A DNA stretch of 47,103 bases from a bacterium (lineage in GTDB: Bacteria > Patescibacteriota > Minisyncoccia > UBA6257 > 02-FULL-45-10c): NCBI GenBank assembly GCA_030646915.1, contig JAUSKT010000012.1, positions 68,663-115,765 on the forward strand, given 5' to 3'. Under the pieces are notes generated by a model. The model was not told the DNA's origin. It saw nothing but the letters and a program-made list of their open reading frames with translations, and made no database searches. Positions 3,984 through 45,061 of this stretch are shown one piece after another; positions within the stretch are counted from its first letter, which is position 1; every line of letters begins with the position of its first letter. Position numbers and translations under genes: made by a program.

Positions 3984-6440
3984 TTATAAACAAACTACTC
4001 CAACCACTTTATCTCCAGAGCTTACATTCATAATCCGGACGCCTTGAGTTGCCCGGCCGCTTAGCCTGATACTTTCAATCGGAGTGCGGATGATTTGTCC
4101 TTTAGCAGAAAGTGCTAAGATTTCTTTTTCCTCATTAACCATCGGAGAGGCAATGACTTGTCCGGTTTTCGTAGTGACTTTAGAAGTTTTGATTCCAGAT
4201 CCGCCTCGCCCTTGGACTTTATATTCGGAAAGCGGAGTCCGTTTACCAAAACCGTTTGCCATAACAGTCAATAATTGCCCCTTTTCATTTTCCTTAGTGA
4301 CAATATTAAGCGCTACGACAGAATCTCCTTTTCTAAGCCGGATTCCGCGGACGCCCGAAGTAGCCCGGCCCATTGAACGGAGCTGGGATTCTTTAAATCG
4401 GATTGCCTGGCCTTGTGCAGTGGCTAGAGTTACCTGATCGTTTCCGGAAGAAAGCCTTACCCACTGGAGCGAGTCACCTTTTTTTAATTTGATTGCGATA
4501 ATTCCGTTCCGGCGGACATTGGAAAAATCTTGAAGAGGAGTTTTTTTAATCAGGCCATTATGAGTGACTATCACCAGGAATCCAGGAATTGATTTTTTCT
4601 CGGCAGGATAAGTAATAATAGCGCTTATTTTTTCTTCAAGCGGAATTTCTAAGAAATTATGAATTGCTTTTCCTTTGGCAATCCGGGTCGCTTCAGGAAT
4701 TTCAAAAACTTTTGTTTGGAAAACCCGTCCGCGCTCGGTAAAAAATAAAATATTGTCATGAGTGTTGGAGGTCATGAAGTGGCTTAAGAAATCTTCTTCC
4801 GCGACATCGGATCCGATCAATCCTTTGCCGCCGCGTTTTTGCGAACGGAAACTGGAAGGCGGAACGCGCTTAATATATCCGCCCTGGGACATAGTGATTA
4901 TAGTTTCTTCTTTTGGAATTAAATCTTCCTCGTTAAATTCTTTAAGTCCGCCAATAACCACCTTTGTTTTTCTTTTATCGCCGTACTTTTCTTTTATTTC
5001 TTGCATTTCGTCTTTTACAACCTTAAGAATTTTAGCTGGGCTTTTTAAAAGAATATTTAATTCATCAATTATTTTTTTCTTTTCTTTCAGTTCTTCCTCG
5101 ATTTTTTCTCTTTCCAGCGCAGCGAGAGTCTGAAGCCGCATTTCCAAAATCGCTGTTGTCTGAAGATCGCTGAATTTAAATTTACTGACTAAATTTCTAT
5201 GCGCCTCTTCTTTGTCTTTGGATTTTTTAATAGTGGTAATAACGGCGTCAATATTTCCAAGAGCCTTATGAAGTCCCATTAAAATATGGGCGCGCTCCTC
5301 GGCTTTTTTAAGATCAAATTCTGCCCGGCGCCTGACTATTTCTTTTCTGTGTTCAATATAAGCAAGAAGAATATCTTTTACCGACATTACTTCAGGCTGT
5401 AAGCCATTTTTAGTCAGCGCAATCATATTCAAGTTGAAATTCTTTTGCAGGTCAGTGAATTGGAAAAGTTGGTTTAAAACTTTTTGCGGAGCCGAGTCAT
5501 TTTTCAATTCAATAATAATCCGGAGGCCGTCTTTATCAGATTCGTCCCGGACATCCCTAATCCCTTGCACTCTTTTTTCTGTAACCAGTTCGGCAATTTT
5601 AATAATCAATTCTGATTTGTTTACTTGGTAAGGAATTTCAGTGATCTCAATATTATATTGGCCTTTTTTCTGTTCTACTACCTCGGTTAACGCGCGGGTA
5701 GTGATAGCTCCATGCCCTGAGGCGTAGGCTTCACGGATGGCTTTTTGGTCATAAATAATTCCGCCGGTTGGAAAATCCGGGCCTTGGATAAATTCCATTA
5801 AATCAATAGCAGTAGCTTTTGGGCTGTCTATTAAATGGGAAGCGGCATCCACTAATTCTGATAAATTATTTGGAGGAATATTAGTTGCCATTCCTACGGC
5901 AATGCCGACAGTTCCGTTTAAAAGCAAATTCGGGAATTTTGCCGGCAAAACTTTCGGTTCTTGGCGGCTGCTATCATAATTTGGATTCCAATCAACAGTC
6001 TCTTTTTCTATATCTAATAGAAGCTCCTCAGACATTTTAGATAATCTGGCTTCTGTATAACGATAAGCGGCAGCCGAATCGCCATCAATACTTCCAAAAT
6101 TGCCTTGCCCTTCTACTAATGGATAACGGAGAGAAAAATCTTGCGCCATGCGGACCATAGCTTCATATACTGAAGAATCGCCATGGGGATGGTATTTGCC
6201 AAGCACTTCACCCACAATATTCGCGGATTTTTTAAATTTCGCTGAATGAGTAAGCCCGCTATCCCACATTGCCCAAAGAATCCTTCTTTGTACTGGCTTT
6301 AATCCATCCCGGACATCCGGAAGGGCGCGGGAAACAATGACAGACATCGCGTAATCCAAATATGACTCCTGCAATTCATCGGTGATTTCCCTGTCTTCTA
6401 TTCCGCTATGTAATTTTGGTTTTTCTTTTTCTTCTTTCAT
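3984..6440 (-). CDS. gyrA: DNA gyrase subunit A
   Basis: [38 protein letters not shown] … [35 protein letters not shown]; GyrA-type beta-pinwheel C-terminus. Confidence 0.97.
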
Positions 6441-6557
6441 CCCGTTAGAGGCAGGTCGCGGTCTATTTGACTTAGTCCCGCCTTGAATTTAATTAATGTT
6501 TTGAATAATAACCTTTTTATATATAATCCCGCTAGCGACCGCGGCCTCTAACGGGAT
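6439..6557. repeat. CCCGTTAGA-family palindromic element (gyrA copy)
   Basis: atcccgttagaggcaggtcgcggtc … gcgaccgcggcctctaacgggat; gyrA ATG abuts the CGGG terminus. Confidence 0.85.
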
Positions 6558-10794: not shown

Positions 10795-11061
10795 GAATCT
10801 ATCTCGATAATATTTTCTAAACGCGTTGTCAGCTAAAATGGATTAGATCAAGGAGTGACGACAAAGGTGTATCCTTAGATACTCCGAGGAGGAACGACAA
10901 AGAGTTAATTCATTTTAGCAACAACCCGAAGGGATACAGCCAATTTTATTCATAACTGCATTAGTTGTCGGAAAGGTAGCAAGCTACGATTTCCTCCCCC
11001 TGCCTTGTTCTGAATAAAATTGGCTAATATCGCGTTAGTAAACTATTATTGAGATAGGTTC
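10795..11061. repeat. large multi-arm structured repeat, copy A
   Basis: Outer stem gaatctatctcgataata/tattattgagataggttc; inner stems ctaaaatg/cattttag and agccaattttattca/tgaataaaattggct; core gtcggaaaggtagcaagctacgatttcctcc. Confidence 0.8.
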
Positions 11062-11090
11062 TTATATTATAATTGTTAGCATGGACATGA

Positions 11091-11198
11091 ATCCCGTTAG
11101 AAAATTAACAAACATGTTTAACTTAACTAAAAATTTATTCAAGCATTATCGGAAGTTTTCAGTCGGCAAGATGTTTAATTTAATTTTCTAAACGGGAT
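11091..11198. repeat. CCCGTTAGA-family palindromic element (ftsH copy, ~108 bp)
   Basis: atcccgttagaaaattaac … ttaattttctaaacgggat; ftsH ATG is the terminal ATG. Confidence 0.85.
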
Positions 11199-13062
11199 GA
11201 AAATTATAAAAAATGGCATGAAAAATGGGATGACTTTATATAAAAATATTTTATGGGCAGTACTTACTCTATTTATAGTAGCGGCTGTTTTTTCGCTTCT
11301 TTTTGAAACCGGCAAAAAACCCTTGGAATTAACTATGACGGGCTTGGTGGAAAAAATTAATAAGGGAGAAATCCAGACAATTGTCGTTCAGGGCAATGAC
11401 CTTTTGATTGATTTAAAAAATGGAGATAAGGGAACTGCTAAAAAAGAATCCGAATCCGGCTTGAGCCAGACCCTGAATAATTATGGGGTGAATGCCAAGG
11501 CGTTACAGTCTGTGGTTTTAGAAATAAAAGACCAGTCCGGATTTTATTTCTGGATGAATTTATTACTCCCGATCCTTTTGCCGCTAATTGTTATTGGCGC
11601 GATGTTTTGGTTTATTTTCCGGCAGGCAAAATCCGGCGCGGGCCAGGCTTTCAGTTTTGGCAAATCCAATTTAAAAATGTTCGGATCGTTTAAAGACCGG
11701 ATAAGTTTTAAAGATGTGGCCGGCTTGAAAGAAGCGAAGCAAGAATTGGAAGAGGTGGTGGATTTTTTGAAAAATCCGAAAAAATTTCTGGAAATGGGGG
11801 CGCGGATTCCGCGCGGAGTGCTTTTAATCGGCCCGCCCGGAACCGGCAAAACTTTGCTTGCCCGCGCTTTGGCAGGAGAAGCCAATGTGCCGTTTTTCCA
11901 TATTTCCGCTTCGGAATTTGTGGAAATGTTTGTGGGCGTCGGCGCTTCCCGGACTCGGGATGCTTTTGCGACTGCTAAAAAAGCCGCTCCTTCTATATTA
12001 TTTGTTGATGAAATTGACGCAGTAGGCCGGGAACGGGGCGCTGGAGTTGGCGGTGGCCACGATGAAAGGGAACAAACTTTAAACCAGATTTTGGTGGAGA
12101 TGGACGGTTTTGACCGGGATTCTAATGTGATTGTGCTGGCGGCTACGAACCGTCCGGATATTTTGGATCGGGCGCTGATTCGCCCAGGCCGTTTTGACCG
12201 GCAGGTGTTTTTAGATTTGCCGGATATTAAAGACCGGGAAGAAATTTTAAAGATTCACTCTAAAGGGAAACCGCTGGCAAAAGAAGTGGATTTGAGAAAG
12301 GTGGCGGTTCGGACGCCGGGCTTTTCCGGAGCGGATTTGGCGAATTTAATGAATGAAGCCGCGATTTTTGCCGCTCGGAATAGCCGGAAAATTGTTACTC
12401 AAGATGATTTATTTAGTTCCATTGAAAAAGTTATGCTTGGGCCGGAGCGGAAAAATCGGGTGATTACCCAGAAAGAAAAAGAAATTACCGCTTATCATGA
12501 AGCGGGTCATGCTTTGGTTGCGGCCAGCTTAAAAGACGCTGATCCGGTGCACAAAGTTTCCATTGTCAGCCGCGGCCGGGCAGGCGGCTATACTTTAAAG
12601 CTTCCTCTTGAAGAACAGCATCTTCGGAACCGAACGCAATTTTTGACCGATATCGCGGTAGCGCTTGGCGGATATGTGGCGGAAAAATTTGTTTTTGGAG
12701 AGATGAGCACCGGCGCTTCCAGCGATCTCCAACAAGCTTCAAAAATGGCGCGGGCGCTGGTTACTCAATTTGGAATGAGTGAGAAATTAGGTCCGCAAAC
12801 TTTTGGCGAAACCCAAGAACTGATATTTTTAGGCAGAGAAATTTCTACAGCAAAGAATTATTCGGAAAACATGGCAACTAAAATTGATGATGAAGTCAGA
12901 AATTTTATTGACCATGCCCATACTGCGGCTAAGAAAATTGTGAGTTCCCGCCGGAAAGTTCTGGATGCGATTGCCAAAGCTTTGATTGAAAAAGAAACTT
13001 TGGAACAAGAAGACTTTAATAAGTTAGTTGGACAATTTAAGTTGAAACCTTTGGGAATATAA
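11197..13062 (+). CDS. ftsH: ATP-dependent zinc metalloprotease FtsH
   Basis: AAA Walker [14 protein letters not shown] zinc motif, SRH region. Confidence 0.97.
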
Positions 13063-15261: not shown

Positions 15262-15720
15262 GTGAAACCCCGTTAGAAGTCCGCTCTCGCCAAGAGCGAG
15301 TGGCGGCAGCCACCTTGGGGCGGCTTACTTCTAACGGGGTGAAACAATTATGTGAAACATTGGGTAAGATTTCCCTATTAAAGTAACCCAACTACCGTTA
15401 CGTGAAACATTTTTAACGCCTTAGTAAACGCTTTAAAATATGTTTCACGCTTAAAGCGTGAAACATTGGTACGGCTTTGAGCCTATTCTTGGAAGATGTC
15501 AGTTACGTGAAACCCCCACACCTAATGAGTTTTAGTTTGCCAAAGGCAAACAAGATTTTAATTAAACTCATTAGGTGTGGGGGTGAAACACTGATTGGGC
15601 GTAATACATGAAACATTTTCAGATAAATAGGCCTATTTAAAAACCAATGTTTCACACTAGCGTGAAACATTGGTAATGATTTGTGGTTAAATTCTAAAAT
15701 TTGTTTCCGGTGAAACAAAT
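15262..15720. repeat. cluster of GTGAAACA/TGTTTCAC hairpins with two embedded palindromes
   Basis: About ten GTGAAAC/GTTTCAC half-sites; palindromes tgtttcacgcttaaagcgtgaaaca, aatgtttcacactagcgtgaaacatt, atttgtttccggtgaaacaaat. Confidence 0.8.
15268..15339. repeat. CCCGTTAGA-family palindromic element inserted between GTGAAA motifs
   Basis: ccccgttagaagt…acttctaacgggg. Confidence 0.75.
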
Positions 15721-23664: not shown

Positions 23665-24049
23665 ATCCCGTTAGAGATAACCATTTATCCCGTTAGAAAA
23701 TTAACAAATATGAAATTTTTAAATCAAAACTTATCAAGGATTATAGAAAGTCTTATGTCCCTAAGGCACCGGGTTTAATTTTCTAACGGGATGAATTATG
23801 TCTACGTTATACGGAGTAAAAAGAGCGGATATTTGTATACTGGGTATACGGCCGATCTACGGAAACGTTTTAACCAGCATAACGAGAATAAACATGGTTT
23901 TACTAAAAAACGGGGACCATGGGAACTTATCTACTATGAAGCATGTCATAATCAACAAGATGCAACGTCGAGAGAAAAATATTTAAAATCGGGAATGGGC
24001 AAGCGTTACCTAAAAAACAGGTTAAAACGTTTCCTATCTCTAACGGGAT
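23665..24049. mobile_element. repeat-bounded unit carrying a GIY-YIG ORF (CCCGTTAGAGATA … TATCTCTAACGGG outer inverted repeats)
   Basis: Outer IR atcccgttagagata/tatctctaacgggat enclosing an inner CCCGTTAGA element and the ORF; ORF stop lies in the right repeat. Confidence 0.6.
23687..23792. repeat. CCCGTTAGA-family palindromic element (GIY-YIG copy, ~106 bp)
   Basis: atcccgttagaaaattaaca … ttaattttctaacgggat. Confidence 0.85.
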
Positions 24050-24051
24050 GA
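23791..24051 (+). CDS. single-domain GIY-YIG nuclease-like protein
   Basis: MNYVYVIRSKKSGYLYTGYTADLRKRFNQHN. Confidence 0.88.
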   Translation: MNYVYVIRSKKSGYLYTGYTADLRKRFNQHNENKHGFTKKRGPWELIYYEACHNQQDATSREKYLKSGMGKRYLKNRLKRFLSLTG

Positions 24052-27589: not shown

Positions 27590-30100
27590 ATGTTTATAAA
27601 AATACTAAAGTTTGGCGGTTCTTCAGTGGGCACGTCGAAAATGATTAAAAAAGCCGGTGAAATTGTTAAAATTGCATCAAAAAAAGAAAAAGTTGCAGTT
27701 GTTGTTTCTGCATTTCAGGGGGTTACGGATCAGCTTCTAAAATGCGCTAAATTGGCGGTTAAAAATGGCAGTAATTTAGATGAGGTAAAGAAATTAAAAA
27801 ATAGGCATACAAAAGCAGTAAATCAATTAGCCAAAAGCCAAAAGTTAAAAGCAGAATGTCAAGAGTATATTGAAAATTTATTTCAGGAATTATCGGCAGT
27901 TTCAGATGAAATTCAAAAAGAGAAATTCATTTCTGATAAAAATTTGGATTTAGTTGCGAGTTTTGGCGAGCGGCTGTCCGCTTATATTATTGCGGCTTCT
28001 GTTAAAAATGCTTATTTTGTTGATGCGCGCGATTTGGTAAAAACCGATGATAATTTTACAAACGCCGCAGTAGATTTTAATAAAACAAACCGCCGGGTAC
28101 AGAATTTTTTTAGAAATAAAAAAGGAATTCCGGTTATAACAGGATTTTTAGGTTCAACCAGTAAGGGCGAAACCACTACTTTGGGGCGAGGAGGATCAGA
28201 TTATACCGCTTCGATATTTGGAGCTGCTTTAGGCGTGAAAGTCGTTGAAATTTGGACTGATGTGGATGGAGTGATGAGCGCCGATCCAAAGCTGGTAAAA
28301 AACGCCCAAGTTTTGCCTAAGATCAGCTATGAAGAAGCTATAGAAATGGCATATTTTGGCGCAAAAGTTATACATCCAGCGACTATGCTTCCGGCTATTA
28401 AAAAAGGTATTCCTATACTTATAAAGAACACTTTTAATCCGAAGGCGCACGGAACTTTAATTTCTAAAGAATTTGTCTTACAACCTCTGGTAAAATGCGT
28501 TACTTCAGTTGATAATGTTGCTTTGATAAATATCGGCGGGGTAAGTTTGGCTGGCATTCCGGGGAGCGCTGCCAGGGTTTTTGAAGCGACTGCCCGCGCA
28601 AAAGCCAATGTGATTTTAATTTCTCAGGCTTCTTCCGAAAACACTATTTGTTTCGCGATTAAATCCGGCGAATTAAAATCGGCGCTGTCCGCGCTTAAAA
28701 AGGAATTTCAAAAAGAAATAAAATCCGGACAAGTTAATTTAGGCATCATTTTAAATCAGTCCATTCTTGCAATGGTTGGCGATGGAATGTGCGGCGTTCC
28801 GGGAATTGCCGGCATGCTTTTTAGCGTTTTGGGCGGTGAAGGGGTTAATGTTTCAGCGATTGCGCAGGGCGGATCAGAAAGAAATATTTCTTTCGTGGTG
28901 GATTCAGCAAGTAAGATAAAAGCTTTAAATGTCGCGCATGATGAATTCTTTTACTGCGGACGGAAAAATATTTTCTTAGTCGGAACCGGGAATATTGGCG
29001 GGGCGCTTTTGGATCAGATAAAAGATCTCCAAAAAAATGGCAGCGCATTGAGGATTTGCGGAATCATAGATGCGTTCCATATGCTTCAAAATGAACGAGG
29101 CAATAATCTTTTAAATTGGAGGAAAACTTTTGAAAAAGGAGAAAAGCCCAACTTAGAAAAATGGCTTTCTTGGGCAAAAGTTTTGCCGGTTGGAAATAAA
29201 GTTTTCGTTGATTGCACGGCAAGCGATGGCGTTGCTAAAAAATATATTGAAATGGCGGAAGCCGGCTTCCATATCGTGACTCCGAATAAGAAATTTAACG
29301 TTTTTCCGATGAAAGAATATAAAAAGTTGCGGGAAGTAATGGCGAAGAATAAAAAGCGGTTTTTATACGAAACTAATGTTGGCGCGGCGCTTCCTGTGAT
29401 TTCCACTTTGCAAGATTTATTAAAAACTGGCGACAAAATCACTAAAATTGAAGGAATTTTTTCCGGGACCCTTAGTTATATTTTTAATAATTTTGGTAGT
29501 CCCGTTAGAGGCCGCGAGGGCACGCAGCGCGCCTCTGCCTCTACCGGGATGGCGGCTACGAAATCATTTAGTGAAGTCGTGGGAATGGCCAAAAAACTTG
29601 GATACACGGAACCGGATCCAAGAGAGGATTTGAATGGCAATGATGTCGGCAGAAAGCTTTTGGTGCTTGCTAGAGAGACGGGCTTAGAAATGGAAATGAT
29701 AGATGTAAAAATTGAAAATTTGGTGCCAAAATCACTTCAGAAATTAAAAACCAGCGATGAATTTTTGAAAGTATTGCCGAAATATGACGATTATTTTAAA
29801 AAGCGCTTAGAAAATGCGAAAAAGAAAAATAAAGTTTTGCGGTACGTTGCAAAACTTAGTCCCGTTAGAGGCCGCGAGGGCTCGCAGCGCGCCTCTGCCT
29901 CTAACGGGATTGGGTGGCGTGCATCAGCGTCATTGCAAGCGATAAGCTTAGATAATCCGCTTTCGGCTACTAAAGATGCTGATAATATTTTTGCGTTTTA
30001 TACCAAGCGATATAATAAAAGGCCCTTGGTCGTTCAGGGTCCGGGCGCTGGGAGAGAAGTAACGGCTGGGGGAGTGTTGGCGGATATACTCAGAATTTAA
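27590..30100 (+). CDS. thrA: bifunctional aspartate kinase/homoserine dehydrogenase
   Basis: KFGGSSVGTSKMIKKAG kinase start; ACT domains; HSDH motifs VGTGNIGGALLDQI, GTLSYIFNNF, GYTEPDPREDLNGNDVGRKLLVLARE. Confidence 0.94.
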   Translation: MFIKILKFGGSSVGTSKMIKKAGEIVKIASKKEKVAVVVSAFQGVTDQLLKCAKLAVKNGSNLDEVKKLKNRHTKAVNQLAKSQKLKAECQEYIENLFQELSAVSDEIQKEKFISDKNLDLVASFGERLSAYIIAASVKNAYFVDARDLVKTDDNFTNAAVDFNKTNRRVQNFFRNKKGIPVITGFLGSTSKGETTTLGRGGSDYTASIFGAALGVKVVEIWTDVDGVMSADPKLVKNAQVLPKISYEEAIEMAYFGAKVIHPATMLPAIKKGIPILIKNTFNPKAHGTLISKEFVLQPLVKCVTSVDNVALINIGGVSLAGIPGSAARVFEATARAKANVILISQASSENTICFAIKSGELKSALSALKKEFQKEIKSGQVNLGIILNQSILAMVGDGMCGVPGIAGMLFSVLGGEGVNVSAIAQGGSERNISFVVDSASKIKALNVAHDEFFYCGRKNIFLVGTGNIGGALLDQIKDLQKNGSALRICGIIDAFHMLQNERGNNLLNWRKTFEKGEKPNLEKWLSWAKVLPVGNKVFVDCTASDGVAKKYIEMAEAGFHIVTPNKKFNVFPMKEYKKLREVMAKNKKRFLYETNVGAALPVISTLQDLLKTGDKITKIEGIFSGTLSYIFNNFGSPVRGREGTQRASASTGMAATKSFSEVVGMAKKLGYTEPDPREDLNGNDVGRKLLVLARETGLEMEMIDVKIENLVPKSLQKLKTSDEFLKVLPKYDDYFKKRLENAKKKNKVLRYVAKLSPVRGREGSQRASASNGIGWRASASLQAISLDNPLSATKDADNIFAFYTKRYNKRPLVVQGPGAGREVTAGGVLADILRI
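29501..29550 (+). repeat. in-frame CCCGTTAGA-family insertion 1 in homoserine dehydrogenase
   Basis: cccgttagaggccgcgagggcacgcagcgcgcctctgcctctaccgggat, encoding SPVRGREGTQRASASTGM. Confidence 0.9.
29861..29910 (+). repeat. in-frame CCCGTTAGA-family insertion 2 in homoserine dehydrogenase
   Basis: cccgttagaggccgcgagggctcgcagcgcgcctctgcctctaacgggat, encoding SPVRGREGSQRASASNGI; 2 differences from insertion 1. Confidence 0.9.
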
Positions 30101-31684: not shown

Positions 31685-31765
31685 CTATCCACTCCGACGT
31701 TCCGCTATGCGGAAGTCGGAGAGCTGACTTCTTTATATTATCTTATGGTGCGTCGGCTTTGAACG
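31685..31765. repeat. 81-bp direct repeat, copy 1 (two hairpins within tRNA D-arm context)
   Basis: ctatccactccgacgttccgctatgcggaagtcggagagctgacttctttatattatcttatggtgcgtcggctttgaacga. Confidence 0.9.
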
Positions 31766-31776
31766 ATATGATTTTG

Positions 31777-31852: not shown

Positions 31853-32116
31853 TTAGATTTTCATTTTAATATAGCCATCTTCTATTATTTTCTCAATATA
31901 ATCTTTTCGCTTTAATTTTTTAATTCTAGCTTTATTTTTTCTCGCTCGCTGTAAAGAGTCAAATTTTTGACTAAATGCCAACACAGGATTCTGCATATTT
32001 CTAGTCGTCTGGGTATGACCTATATAGTGTTGTTTCAGTCGCCTTTCTAAATCATCGGTACTGCCTATATAGAGTCTTCCATTATTATCTTTAAGTATAT
32101 ATACAAAACCAAACAT
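31853..32116 (-). CDS. single-domain GIY-YIG nuclease-like protein
   Basis: MFGFVYILKDNNGRLYIGSTDDLERRLKQHYIGHTQTT. Confidence 0.88.
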   Translation of the reverse strand: MFGFVYILKDNNGRLYIGSTDDLERRLKQHYIGHTQTTRNMQNPVLAFSQKFDSLQRARKNKARIKKLKRKDYIEKIIEDGYIKMKI

Positions 32117-32122
32117 AATTTT

Positions 32123-32203
32123 CTATCCGCTCCGACGTTCCGCTATGCGGAAGTCGGAGAGCCGACTTCTTTATATTATCTTATGGTGCGTCGGCTTTGA
32201 ACG
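32123..32203. repeat. 81-bp direct repeat, copy 2
   Basis: ctatccgctccgacgttccgctatgcggaagtcggagagccgacttctttatattatcttatggtgcgtcggctttgaacga; about 2 differences from copy 1. Confidence 0.9.
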
Positions 32204-32256
32204 ACGAGGGCAGAATTTATTTATAACTTAGAACTTATAAACTTACAACTCATTAG

Positions 32257-39286: not shown

Positions 39287-39781
39287 TTATTCGAATTTTA
39301 CTTTAAGTTTTTTGGATTTTTGGCGGTTAAGTTTGGGCATTTTAATTGTCAGTACGCCATTTTTTATTATGGCAGAGGAATTTTCCGCATCTACTTCCTG
39401 CGGCAAGATAATTGAACGGGAAAATTTGCCCCAATAGCATTCCTGGTAAAAATAATCTTCATCGATAACTTTTTGCTCCTTCACTCTTTTGCCAGTGATA
39501 GTAACTGATTCATTCGTAATATTGATATCCACATCGTCGGGGTTAACGCCAGCAATTGTTGATTCAACAACAATTTCATTTGGAGTCTGATAAACGTCCA
39601 CAGTTAATTGGCCCACCCCTTCTTCCATAAGATCGCTAATTTGAGTTTCTTTTTTAGAAGCCCTTTTTTCTTTAAGCGGAATACTTGTAGCCCTTACTAA
39701 TTCTACTTCCGGTTCTAAAGAAATTTCTTCTTCAGGAGCATGGGATAATTCTTCAAAAAATTTTTTTGCCTCTTCATCCAT
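39287..39781 (-). CDS. hsp20: Hsp20/alpha-crystallin small heat shock protein
   Basis: LTVDVYQTPNEIVVESTIAGVNPDDVDINITNESVTITGKR…WGKFSRSIILPQEVDAENSSAIIKNGVLTIKMPK. Confidence 0.93.
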   Translation of the reverse strand: MDEEAKKFFEELSHAPEEEISLEPEVELVRATSIPLKEKRASKKETQISDLMEEGVGQLTVDVYQTPNEIVVESTIAGVNPDDVDINITNESVTITGKRVKEQKVIDEDYFYQECYWGKFSRSIILPQEVDAENSSAIIKNGVLTIKMPKLNRQKSKKLKVKFE

Positions 39782-39887
39782 CCCGTTTAGAAAATTAAAT
39801 TAAACATCTTTCCGACTAAAGACTTCCGATATTGTTCCATAAAATTTTTATTAAATGTAAGCATAGTTATTAATTTTCTAACGGGAT
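39780..39887. repeat. CCCGTTAGA-family palindromic element (hsp20 copy, ~108 bp)
   Basis: atcccgtttagaaaattaaa … taattttctaacgggat; hsp20 ATG abuts the terminus. Confidence 0.85.
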
Positions 39888-44743: not shown

Positions 44744-44776
44744 CAAGAATCTATTTCAATTAAGGTAGTTTTAATA

Positions 44777-45046
44777 GAACCTATCTCCATAACAATCCTC
44801 AAACGCGTTGCTAAGATAAATTGAATAATTTCTAGGCATGCTGACGAGCTTGCGGTTGAATACCGCAGCGAGGAAGTATAACGAAGAAATTATCAATTTA
44901 GACAGCAACCCTTCGGGATACAGCCAATTTATATCCAGAACATTGTTAGTCGTCGGAAAGGTAGCAAGCTACGATTTCCTCCTCCTGCCTTGTTCTGAAT
45001 AAAATTGGCTTGTATCGCGTTATGGGATTATTATGGAGATAGGTTC
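44777..45046. repeat. large multi-arm structured repeat, copy C
   Basis: Outer stem gaacctatctccat/atggagataggttc; inner taaattgaataatttc/gaaattatcaattta; core gtcggaaaggtagcaagctacgatttcctcc. Confidence 0.85.
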
Positions 45047-45061
45047 AAATATTATTTTTTT

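Follow-up and report, generated by a model that had tools for sequence, protein, structure and literature searches.

Two in-frame palindromic inserts in a bacterial ThrA and their probable membership of a mobile element family associated with a GIY-YIG endonuclease

Abstract

The thrA gene of the ultra-small patescibacterium studied here carries, in frame within its homoserine dehydrogenase part, two 50-bp inserts that we judge likely to be non-autonomous, hairpin-forming (MITE-like) elements of a family driven by an element encoding a GIY-YIG endonuclease. With less assurance, we favour the view that the latter represents a new class of autonomous mobile element: about 280 bp long, with inverted ends, a 4-bp target duplication and no enzyme other than a GIY-YIG endonuclease, it would sit at start codons that it re-creates and spawn hairpin derivatives of 50–140 bp, some of them in frame in essential proteins, in Patescibacteria, Omnitrophota and Planctomycetota. 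Mobilisation of the short copies by the GIY-YIG enzyme is inferred and not shown, as no movement was observed. A mobile element moved by a lone GIY-YIG DNA-cutting enzyme appears not to have been described; a literature search from which subscription journals were mostly absent returned no description of the family, nor of any prokaryotic GIY-YIG element that has inverted ends.

Results

Two palindromic inserts are read in frame in ThrA

The window, that is, the whole stretch of 47,103 nucleotides that was analysed, contains a thrA gene (positions 27590–30100, + strand) encoding a bifunctional aspartokinase / homoserine dehydrogenase of 836 amino acids, with matches to the Pfam families AA_kinase, ACT, NAD_binding_3 and Homoserine_dh. 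A preliminary description of this DNA had reported two near-identical 50-bp palindromes in the gene; both exist and differ at 2 of 50 positions, but each had been placed one base too high. Insert 1 (29500–29549, + strand) encodes SPVRGREGTQRASASTGM and its right arm carries a single mutation (TCTACCGGGA), and insert 2 (29860–29909, + strand) encodes SPVRGREGSQRASASNGI and forms a perfect 13-bp stem. The peptide SPVRGREG(T/S)QRASAS(T/N)G, which had been assigned to them, is indeed what the frame reads, and this frame runs uninterrupted over 836 codons through both inserts. Folding prediction gave RNA hairpins of −28.2 kcal/mol (z −3.5) for insert 1 and −32.4 kcal/mol (z −4.5) for insert 2.

The proposal that these sequences had been inserted in frame into homoserine dehydrogenase was upheld by an alignment with ThrA of 12 relatives (56–77% identity), all of which lack both inserts and have only a short linker at each point. 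At the first junction the relatives read FNNFD--GTKPF compared with FNNFG[SPVRGREGTQRASASTGM]AATKSF here, and at the second KLER--GRAVASL compared with KL[SPVRGREGSQRASASNGI]GWRASASL. The alignment, from which the insertion boundaries had been expected to emerge, gives net gains of +19 and +17 residues, respectively, which would correspond to 18 codons (50 bp plus a 4-bp duplication) with a linker longer or shorter by one codon. The target duplication is present in a decayed form at both copies (GTAG/TGGC for insert 1, TTAG/TTGG for insert 2), so that the exact thrA junctions rest on the comparison with relatives; this decay, together with the mutated right arm of insert 1, indicates that the thrA copies are not the youngest. 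Insert 2 shows 1 mismatch to the copies found in the XerC and KsgA genes and 2 mismatches to insert 1. Since it is thus closer to those copies than to its neighbour, the two thrA copies probably result from separate insertions of different source copies, as far as their sequences allow us to judge.

The preliminary description had also suggested mapping the inserts on a homoserine dehydrogenase structure, with surface loops in mind, and the structure prediction places both in loops. In the AlphaFold model, insert 1 is a low-confidence stretch (residues 641–654) between helices 626–634 and 660–670, and insert 2 a low-confidence stretch (762–773) at a beta-hairpin turn between strands 748–758 and 776–786. 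The model as a whole is only moderate (pTM 0.48); its homoserine dehydrogenase part matches yeast 1EBF (target TM 0.81), and in the sequence alignment of ThrA to 1EBF both inserts fall at gaps. The inserts are thus predicted to be flexible loops that leave the homoserine dehydrogenase fold intact.

An assembly or binning artefact, or an unrelated low-complexity loop expansion, could be suspected, the window coming from a single assembly (599 kb, 77% complete) that was available without reads. We give this explanation practically no credence, because the same element types with matching duplications are found in dozens of independent assemblies and because the thrA copies seem to stem from different source copies.

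The inserts belong to a family with paired ends and a 4-bp duplication

The ends of the family are inverted repeats of 13–14 bp, YCCCGTTAGARRC / YCCCGTTAGARR. In the window we counted 13 occurrences of their core, CCCGTTAGA, for 0.3 expected; the 599-kb genome has 80 of TCCCGTTAGA and none of a reversed control. Paired ends delimit elements of 50, 68, 71/72, 77, 102–108 and 116–126 bp; one of these, a C/G-ended element of 72 bp with the duplication TGAAA (15268–15339, + strand), lies outside any ORF. When the window was searched with Rfam at the gathering score, only tRNAs were obtained and the elements had no match.

Many different insertion sites with a 4-bp duplication were found across the family. 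The 4-bp flanks matched in 104 of 167 distinct copies, compared with 9 (maximum 17) when the right flanks were shuffled, and the duplication has Y at its first base and R at its last (consensus YNNR). Arm positions 0, 10 and 11 are variable yet complementary in 163, 164 and 161 of the 167 copies, and these concerted changes suggest that both arms are recognised as one unit. These statistics are limited to copies collected with one stringent pattern, and the sample includes near relatives, which cannot count as independent. Short copies were present in 29 of the 244 genomes of the order and, with a slightly looser pattern, in 70 of the 286 genomes of the class, as well as in records named Omnitrophota, Phycisphaerae, Nitrospirae, Riflebacteria, Cloacimonadota and Nanoarchaeota; no Rickettsiales genome was among the records listed with copies. 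Judging by these matches, the family is widespread in Patescibacteria, Omnitrophota, Planctomycetota and other groups.

Selfish repeats resembling the Rickettsia palindromic elements, spread by an unknown copying process without a dedicated mobiliser, would show the same behaviour, since those too are short palindromes that unrelated housekeeping genes carry in frame (PMC10969869). Here, however, the sharp 4-bp duplication, the concerted arm changes and the existence of full-length copies bearing a gene point to cut-and-insert with a dedicated recogniser, and we consider such an origin very improbable.

Intragenic copies keep the reading frame

Of the 167 copies, 64 fall within an open frame that continues for 30 codons or more to either side. 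Their length is 3n+2 in 62 cases, compared with 62 of the 103 copies located elsewhere (Fisher p 1.5e-8), meaning that the element plus its 4-bp duplication keeps the frame; part of this excess arises by construction, for an out-of-frame insertion would not count as being inside an ORF. When the element was deleted from copies outside ORFs, a plausible interrupted gene was uncovered in at most a few cases. As deletion so rarely restores a broken gene, the intragenic copies are inferred to be read through and not skipped. The ends impose no stop in two of the three phases, on either strand, and in those phases the element is thus read through as an Arg/Ser-rich loop: the reading was ...xPVR...SNGx... 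in 46 cases and ...PLE...LTG... in 16.

Removal or skipping of the inserts at the RNA or translation level, by a mini-intron or a translational bypass element of the sort known from other systems, might be invoked in view of the strong hairpins and of the homing-type endonuclease within the family. The frame is kept in 62 of the 64 intragenic copies and genes contain next to no copies that break it, neither of which skipping or splicing would require; we hold this possibility to be extremely slight and retain the reading of the inserts as translated, MITE-like elements. The idea that the short elements are adapted to avoid stop codons was likewise not retained, the support being only weak: unused frames were open in 83% compared with 76% for shuffled cores, and the high GC content of the elements (58%) alone reduces the number of stops.

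In the source genome, in-frame copies were found in KsgA (+18 aa exactly) and Fpg (+25 aa exactly), and further ones in XerC, GrpE, class-II aldolase, an M23 peptidase and others. Relatives without the insert were found in all five genes compared (KsgA, Fpg, XerC, GrpE and class-II aldolase). Some of these hosts deserve a separate mention. The ksgA gene (G000:C6:52381-53327, L033) carries a 123-bp start-codon element in addition to its 50-bp in-frame element. In class-II fructose-bisphosphate aldolase, different elements occupy the same loop after GN(L/I)HGMF in two families of the order (G000:C4:21215-21282 and L213:1531-1604). Finally, two Omnitrophota loci (L084:6383-6447 and L140:3380-3444) have in-frame copies just before FTL(I/V)ELL pseudopilin-like signal sequences.

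A full-length member encodes a GIY-YIG endonuclease

The window also contains a full-length member of the family (23666–24048, + strand), bounded by TCCCGTTAGAGATA..TATCTCTAACGGGA, flanked by the 5-bp duplication TGAAA and located at the start codon of a trigger-factor-like gene. It measures 383 bp, including a 104-bp element (23688–23791, + strand) nested at the start codon of the only gene between its ends. This gene (23791–24051, + strand) is complete and encodes a small GIY-YIG endonuclease of 86 amino acids (PF01541, E 7.5e-20; 71.5 bits for a cut-off of 22.6); the right arm supplies the codons for its final residues, SLTG, and its TGA stop overlaps the ATG of the next gene. Among the relatives (L378, G001), the trigger-factor-like gene shows a clean empty site, with the same upstream gene.

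A DNA pattern joining the 3' end of the GIY-YIG gene to the right arm was found at 42 places in 25 of the 286 genomes of the class, and the reversed control gave none. About 20 of the 30 loci read are full-length elements of 276–283 bp, most of them with a 4-bp duplication, and the remaining loci are mostly copies of 116–141 bp that retain the 3' end of the GIY-YIG gene (L266, L267, L277), as expected for internal-deletion derivatives. The 50–76-bp cores have only the ends in common with the full-length element. Outside the window the GIY-YIG element is present in about 20 other genomes, and multiple copies of it occur in Terrybacteria and in an Omnitrophota genome.

The GIY-YIG genes form one supported clade, all members of which except L105 carry the ends; L229, first scored as endless, has them in a variant form. 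YTG, LRKR and RE..LK are conserved across 21 members of the clade. The end variants alter both arms at once (GTTAAAGAC in L229, GTACGAACC in L333, TCCTGTTAG in L338 and GTTAGACCTC in L335, from Phycisphaerae), and a second inverted repeat, formed by GGAARCGYTT within the gene and subterminal bases on the right, matches exactly in 16 of 19 cases and covaries. The gene is found between the ends in three phyla and its position never varies: its 3' end falls within the right arm or close to it.

If the inserts are MITEs of this family, their mobiliser could still be a DDE transposase or another recombinase encoded elsewhere, the GIY-YIG protein being cargo or an accessory. Terminal inverted repeats and a duplication of fixed length are typical of DDE elements, strand transfer by GIY-YIG enzymes is unknown, and the strict GIY-YIG end pattern is missing from many genomes with short copies, namely 56 of 70. 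Short copies were nevertheless found in 14 of the 25 genomes with the pattern compared with 56 of the 261 without it (p 4e-4, uncorrected for phylogeny). When 16 short-copy genomes lacking the pattern were searched with the protein, the ends lay beside 7 of 30 GIY-YIG genes, in some of the genomes only. Against a DDE mobiliser, only GIY-YIG genes were seen between family ends in the loci examined from three phyla, and end pairs 200–6000 bp apart in the loci scanned proved to be false pairs only. We thus regard a mobiliser of this kind as unlikely, without dismissing it, and keep the GIY-YIG enzyme as the preferred candidate. Four end-pair candidates with matching 4-mers had been considered as a possible autonomous copy with a transposase; the two that were opened (L157, L069) each consisted of two separate elements, and the idea was abandoned.

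Viral carriage of the element was also rejected: in IMG/VR the GIY-YIG end pattern matched 3 times, always without a left end, so that we attribute these matches to chance, and phage records gave a single distant GIY-YIG match only. Elsewhere in the window, a divergent GIY-YIG match (31904–32110, − strand, 41 bits) is located between two 82-bp direct repeats (31685–31766 and 32123–32204), which are 98% identical and contain an internal hairpin.

Start codons and promoter-like sequences are frequent sites

A start codon coincides exactly with the insertion point in 15 of 20 full-length copies and, among the 40 long copies of the source genome that were scored, in 37. The geometry is that A|TGNN is duplicated and the last base of the element, an A, restores the ATG; at such sites the GIY-YIG gene ends ...GGA TGA, its stop overlapping the ATG of the host gene. 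An element of 117 bp with the duplication TTTCA lies at the start codon of gyrA (6440–6556, − strand). The preliminary description had likened it to the thrA inserts and called it a leader RNA: it is of the same family, the first 17 and last 15 bases being identical, but it is better described as a start-codon insertion, because the last base of the element and the TG of the duplication re-create the ATG. It is absent in most relatives, one of which (G001) has a different element there. At both gyrA and the trigger-factor-like gene, the element present differs from genus to genus, so that each was struck more than once.

Two further start codons of the window are occupied, that of ORF 11197–13062 by a 106-bp element (11092–11197, + strand) containing a 34-codon leader ORF (MNPVRKLTNMF..NLIF, then a stop), and that of an Hsp20-like ORF (39287–39781) by an element of about 106 bp (39781–39886, − strand). 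More generally, copies of about 105 bp create near-identical 34-codon leader ORFs (M-N/D-PVRKLINMF..KTFNLIF), whose stop lies 4–5 bases before the restored ATG. Both window elements have such an ORF, as do about 35 more places in the genome, and upstream of these elements a −10-box-like sequence is often seen close to the ATG. It is possible that the leader ORFs couple the translation of many genes.

Short intergenic copies often adjoin TTGACA, a −35-like box (for example L157:854-968 and 1802-1868), as if they had inserted in −35 boxes restored by the duplication. Also in non-coding DNA, we observed a repeat of another kind (10885–11070 / 44869–45055), 73–85% identical over 62 + 127 bp, part of which is inverted at 44772–45051.

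Discussion

In the mechanism that we propose, the GIY-YIG enzyme would recognise both arms plus a loose YNNR target, cut this target with a 4-nt stagger and drive insertion, in cis for its own element and in trans for the short copies; repair synthesis after the staggered cut would then yield the duplication. Insertion would be only loosely targeted, and the survivors would be those at sites of least harm, namely start codons (restored by the last base of the element plus TG), −35-like boxes (TTGACA restored by the duplication) and surface loops (lengths of 3n+2). This mechanism has two weak points, its chemistry and the many genomes with short copies in which no full-length copy was detected. 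To our knowledge, GIY-YIG enzymes are hydrolytic nucleases for which strand transfer has never been demonstrated; as no strand joining is known for them, the chemistry of integration is left unexplained.

In-frame, protein-coding palindromes have so far been discussed mainly for Rickettsia, where the mobiliser is unknown. The same behaviour is now seen in streamlined bacteria far removed from Rickettsia, and its candidate engine is of a size that permits synthesis and testing. If GIY-YIG nucleases drive insertion with a fixed duplication, they would add an enzyme class to those used in transposition, and GIY-YIG elements could account for some small GIY-YIG genes and for unexplained loops in CPR proteins. 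The in-frame copies also constitute a natural data set on the tolerance of proteins to new loops of about 18–27 residues.

Comparison with known systems

Several known systems share some of these features. A derivative of a DDE insertion sequence found no support in the loci examined, in which GIY-YIG genes only, and no DDE transposase, lie between the ends. Homing endonucleases and self-splicing introns were set aside since the family occupies many different sites with a 4-bp duplication, and not one conserved site without duplication. REP sequences and their RAYT (TnpA-REP) enzymes offer another case of palindromic, dispersed elements; REP transposition relies on a Y1 transposase and leaves no duplication, so that the 4-bp duplication of the family speaks against it. 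The attC sites of integrons have the GTTAGA/TCTAAC motif in common with the family, in the order TCTAAC..GTTAGA and without duplication; this order is reversed in every family copy, and attC was thus discarded. UPF0213-type GIY-YIG genes are stand-alone, and small proteins of this type (1zg2 and 1ywl in the PDB) are the closest solved relatives, by sequence, of the window GIY-YIG protein, whose clade differs in being bounded by element ends.

The non-intron GIY-YIG insertion sequences of CPR rRNA genes, un-homing-like and found beside short (<200 bp) uncharacterised inserts (PMC11270868), resemble our case in having CPR hosts, a GIY-YIG gene and short companion inserts. They differ in being reported in rRNA genes, in a paper that does not use the words palindrome or inverted repeat; the two could be the same thing, no direct comparison having been made.

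The preliminary description had drawn a parallel with the Rickettsia palindromic elements, short palindromes of about 150 bp and several families that have entered unrelated genes without breaking the frame and are translated (PMC10969869). As regards behaviour the parallel is sound, the thrA-type elements being also palindromic and in frame in protein genes. These are however shorter (50–77 bp), found in other hosts and, so far as could be judged, unrelated in sequence, and their family has a sharp 4-bp duplication, start-codon copies and a candidate autonomous GIY-YIG member. The thrA inserts thus resemble the Rickettsia elements and are not classed with them, because they differ in hosts, length, duplication and the possession of an enzyme-bearing relative, and because the comparison included no alignment of Rickettsia element sequences. 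The likeness to MITEs extends to the 13-bp terminal inverted repeats, the fixed 4-bp duplication, the lack of an enzyme of their own and the existence of a longer relative with the same ends and a gene, the mobilising role of which is inferred only; the difference is that this relative encodes a GIY-YIG nuclease and no known transposase.
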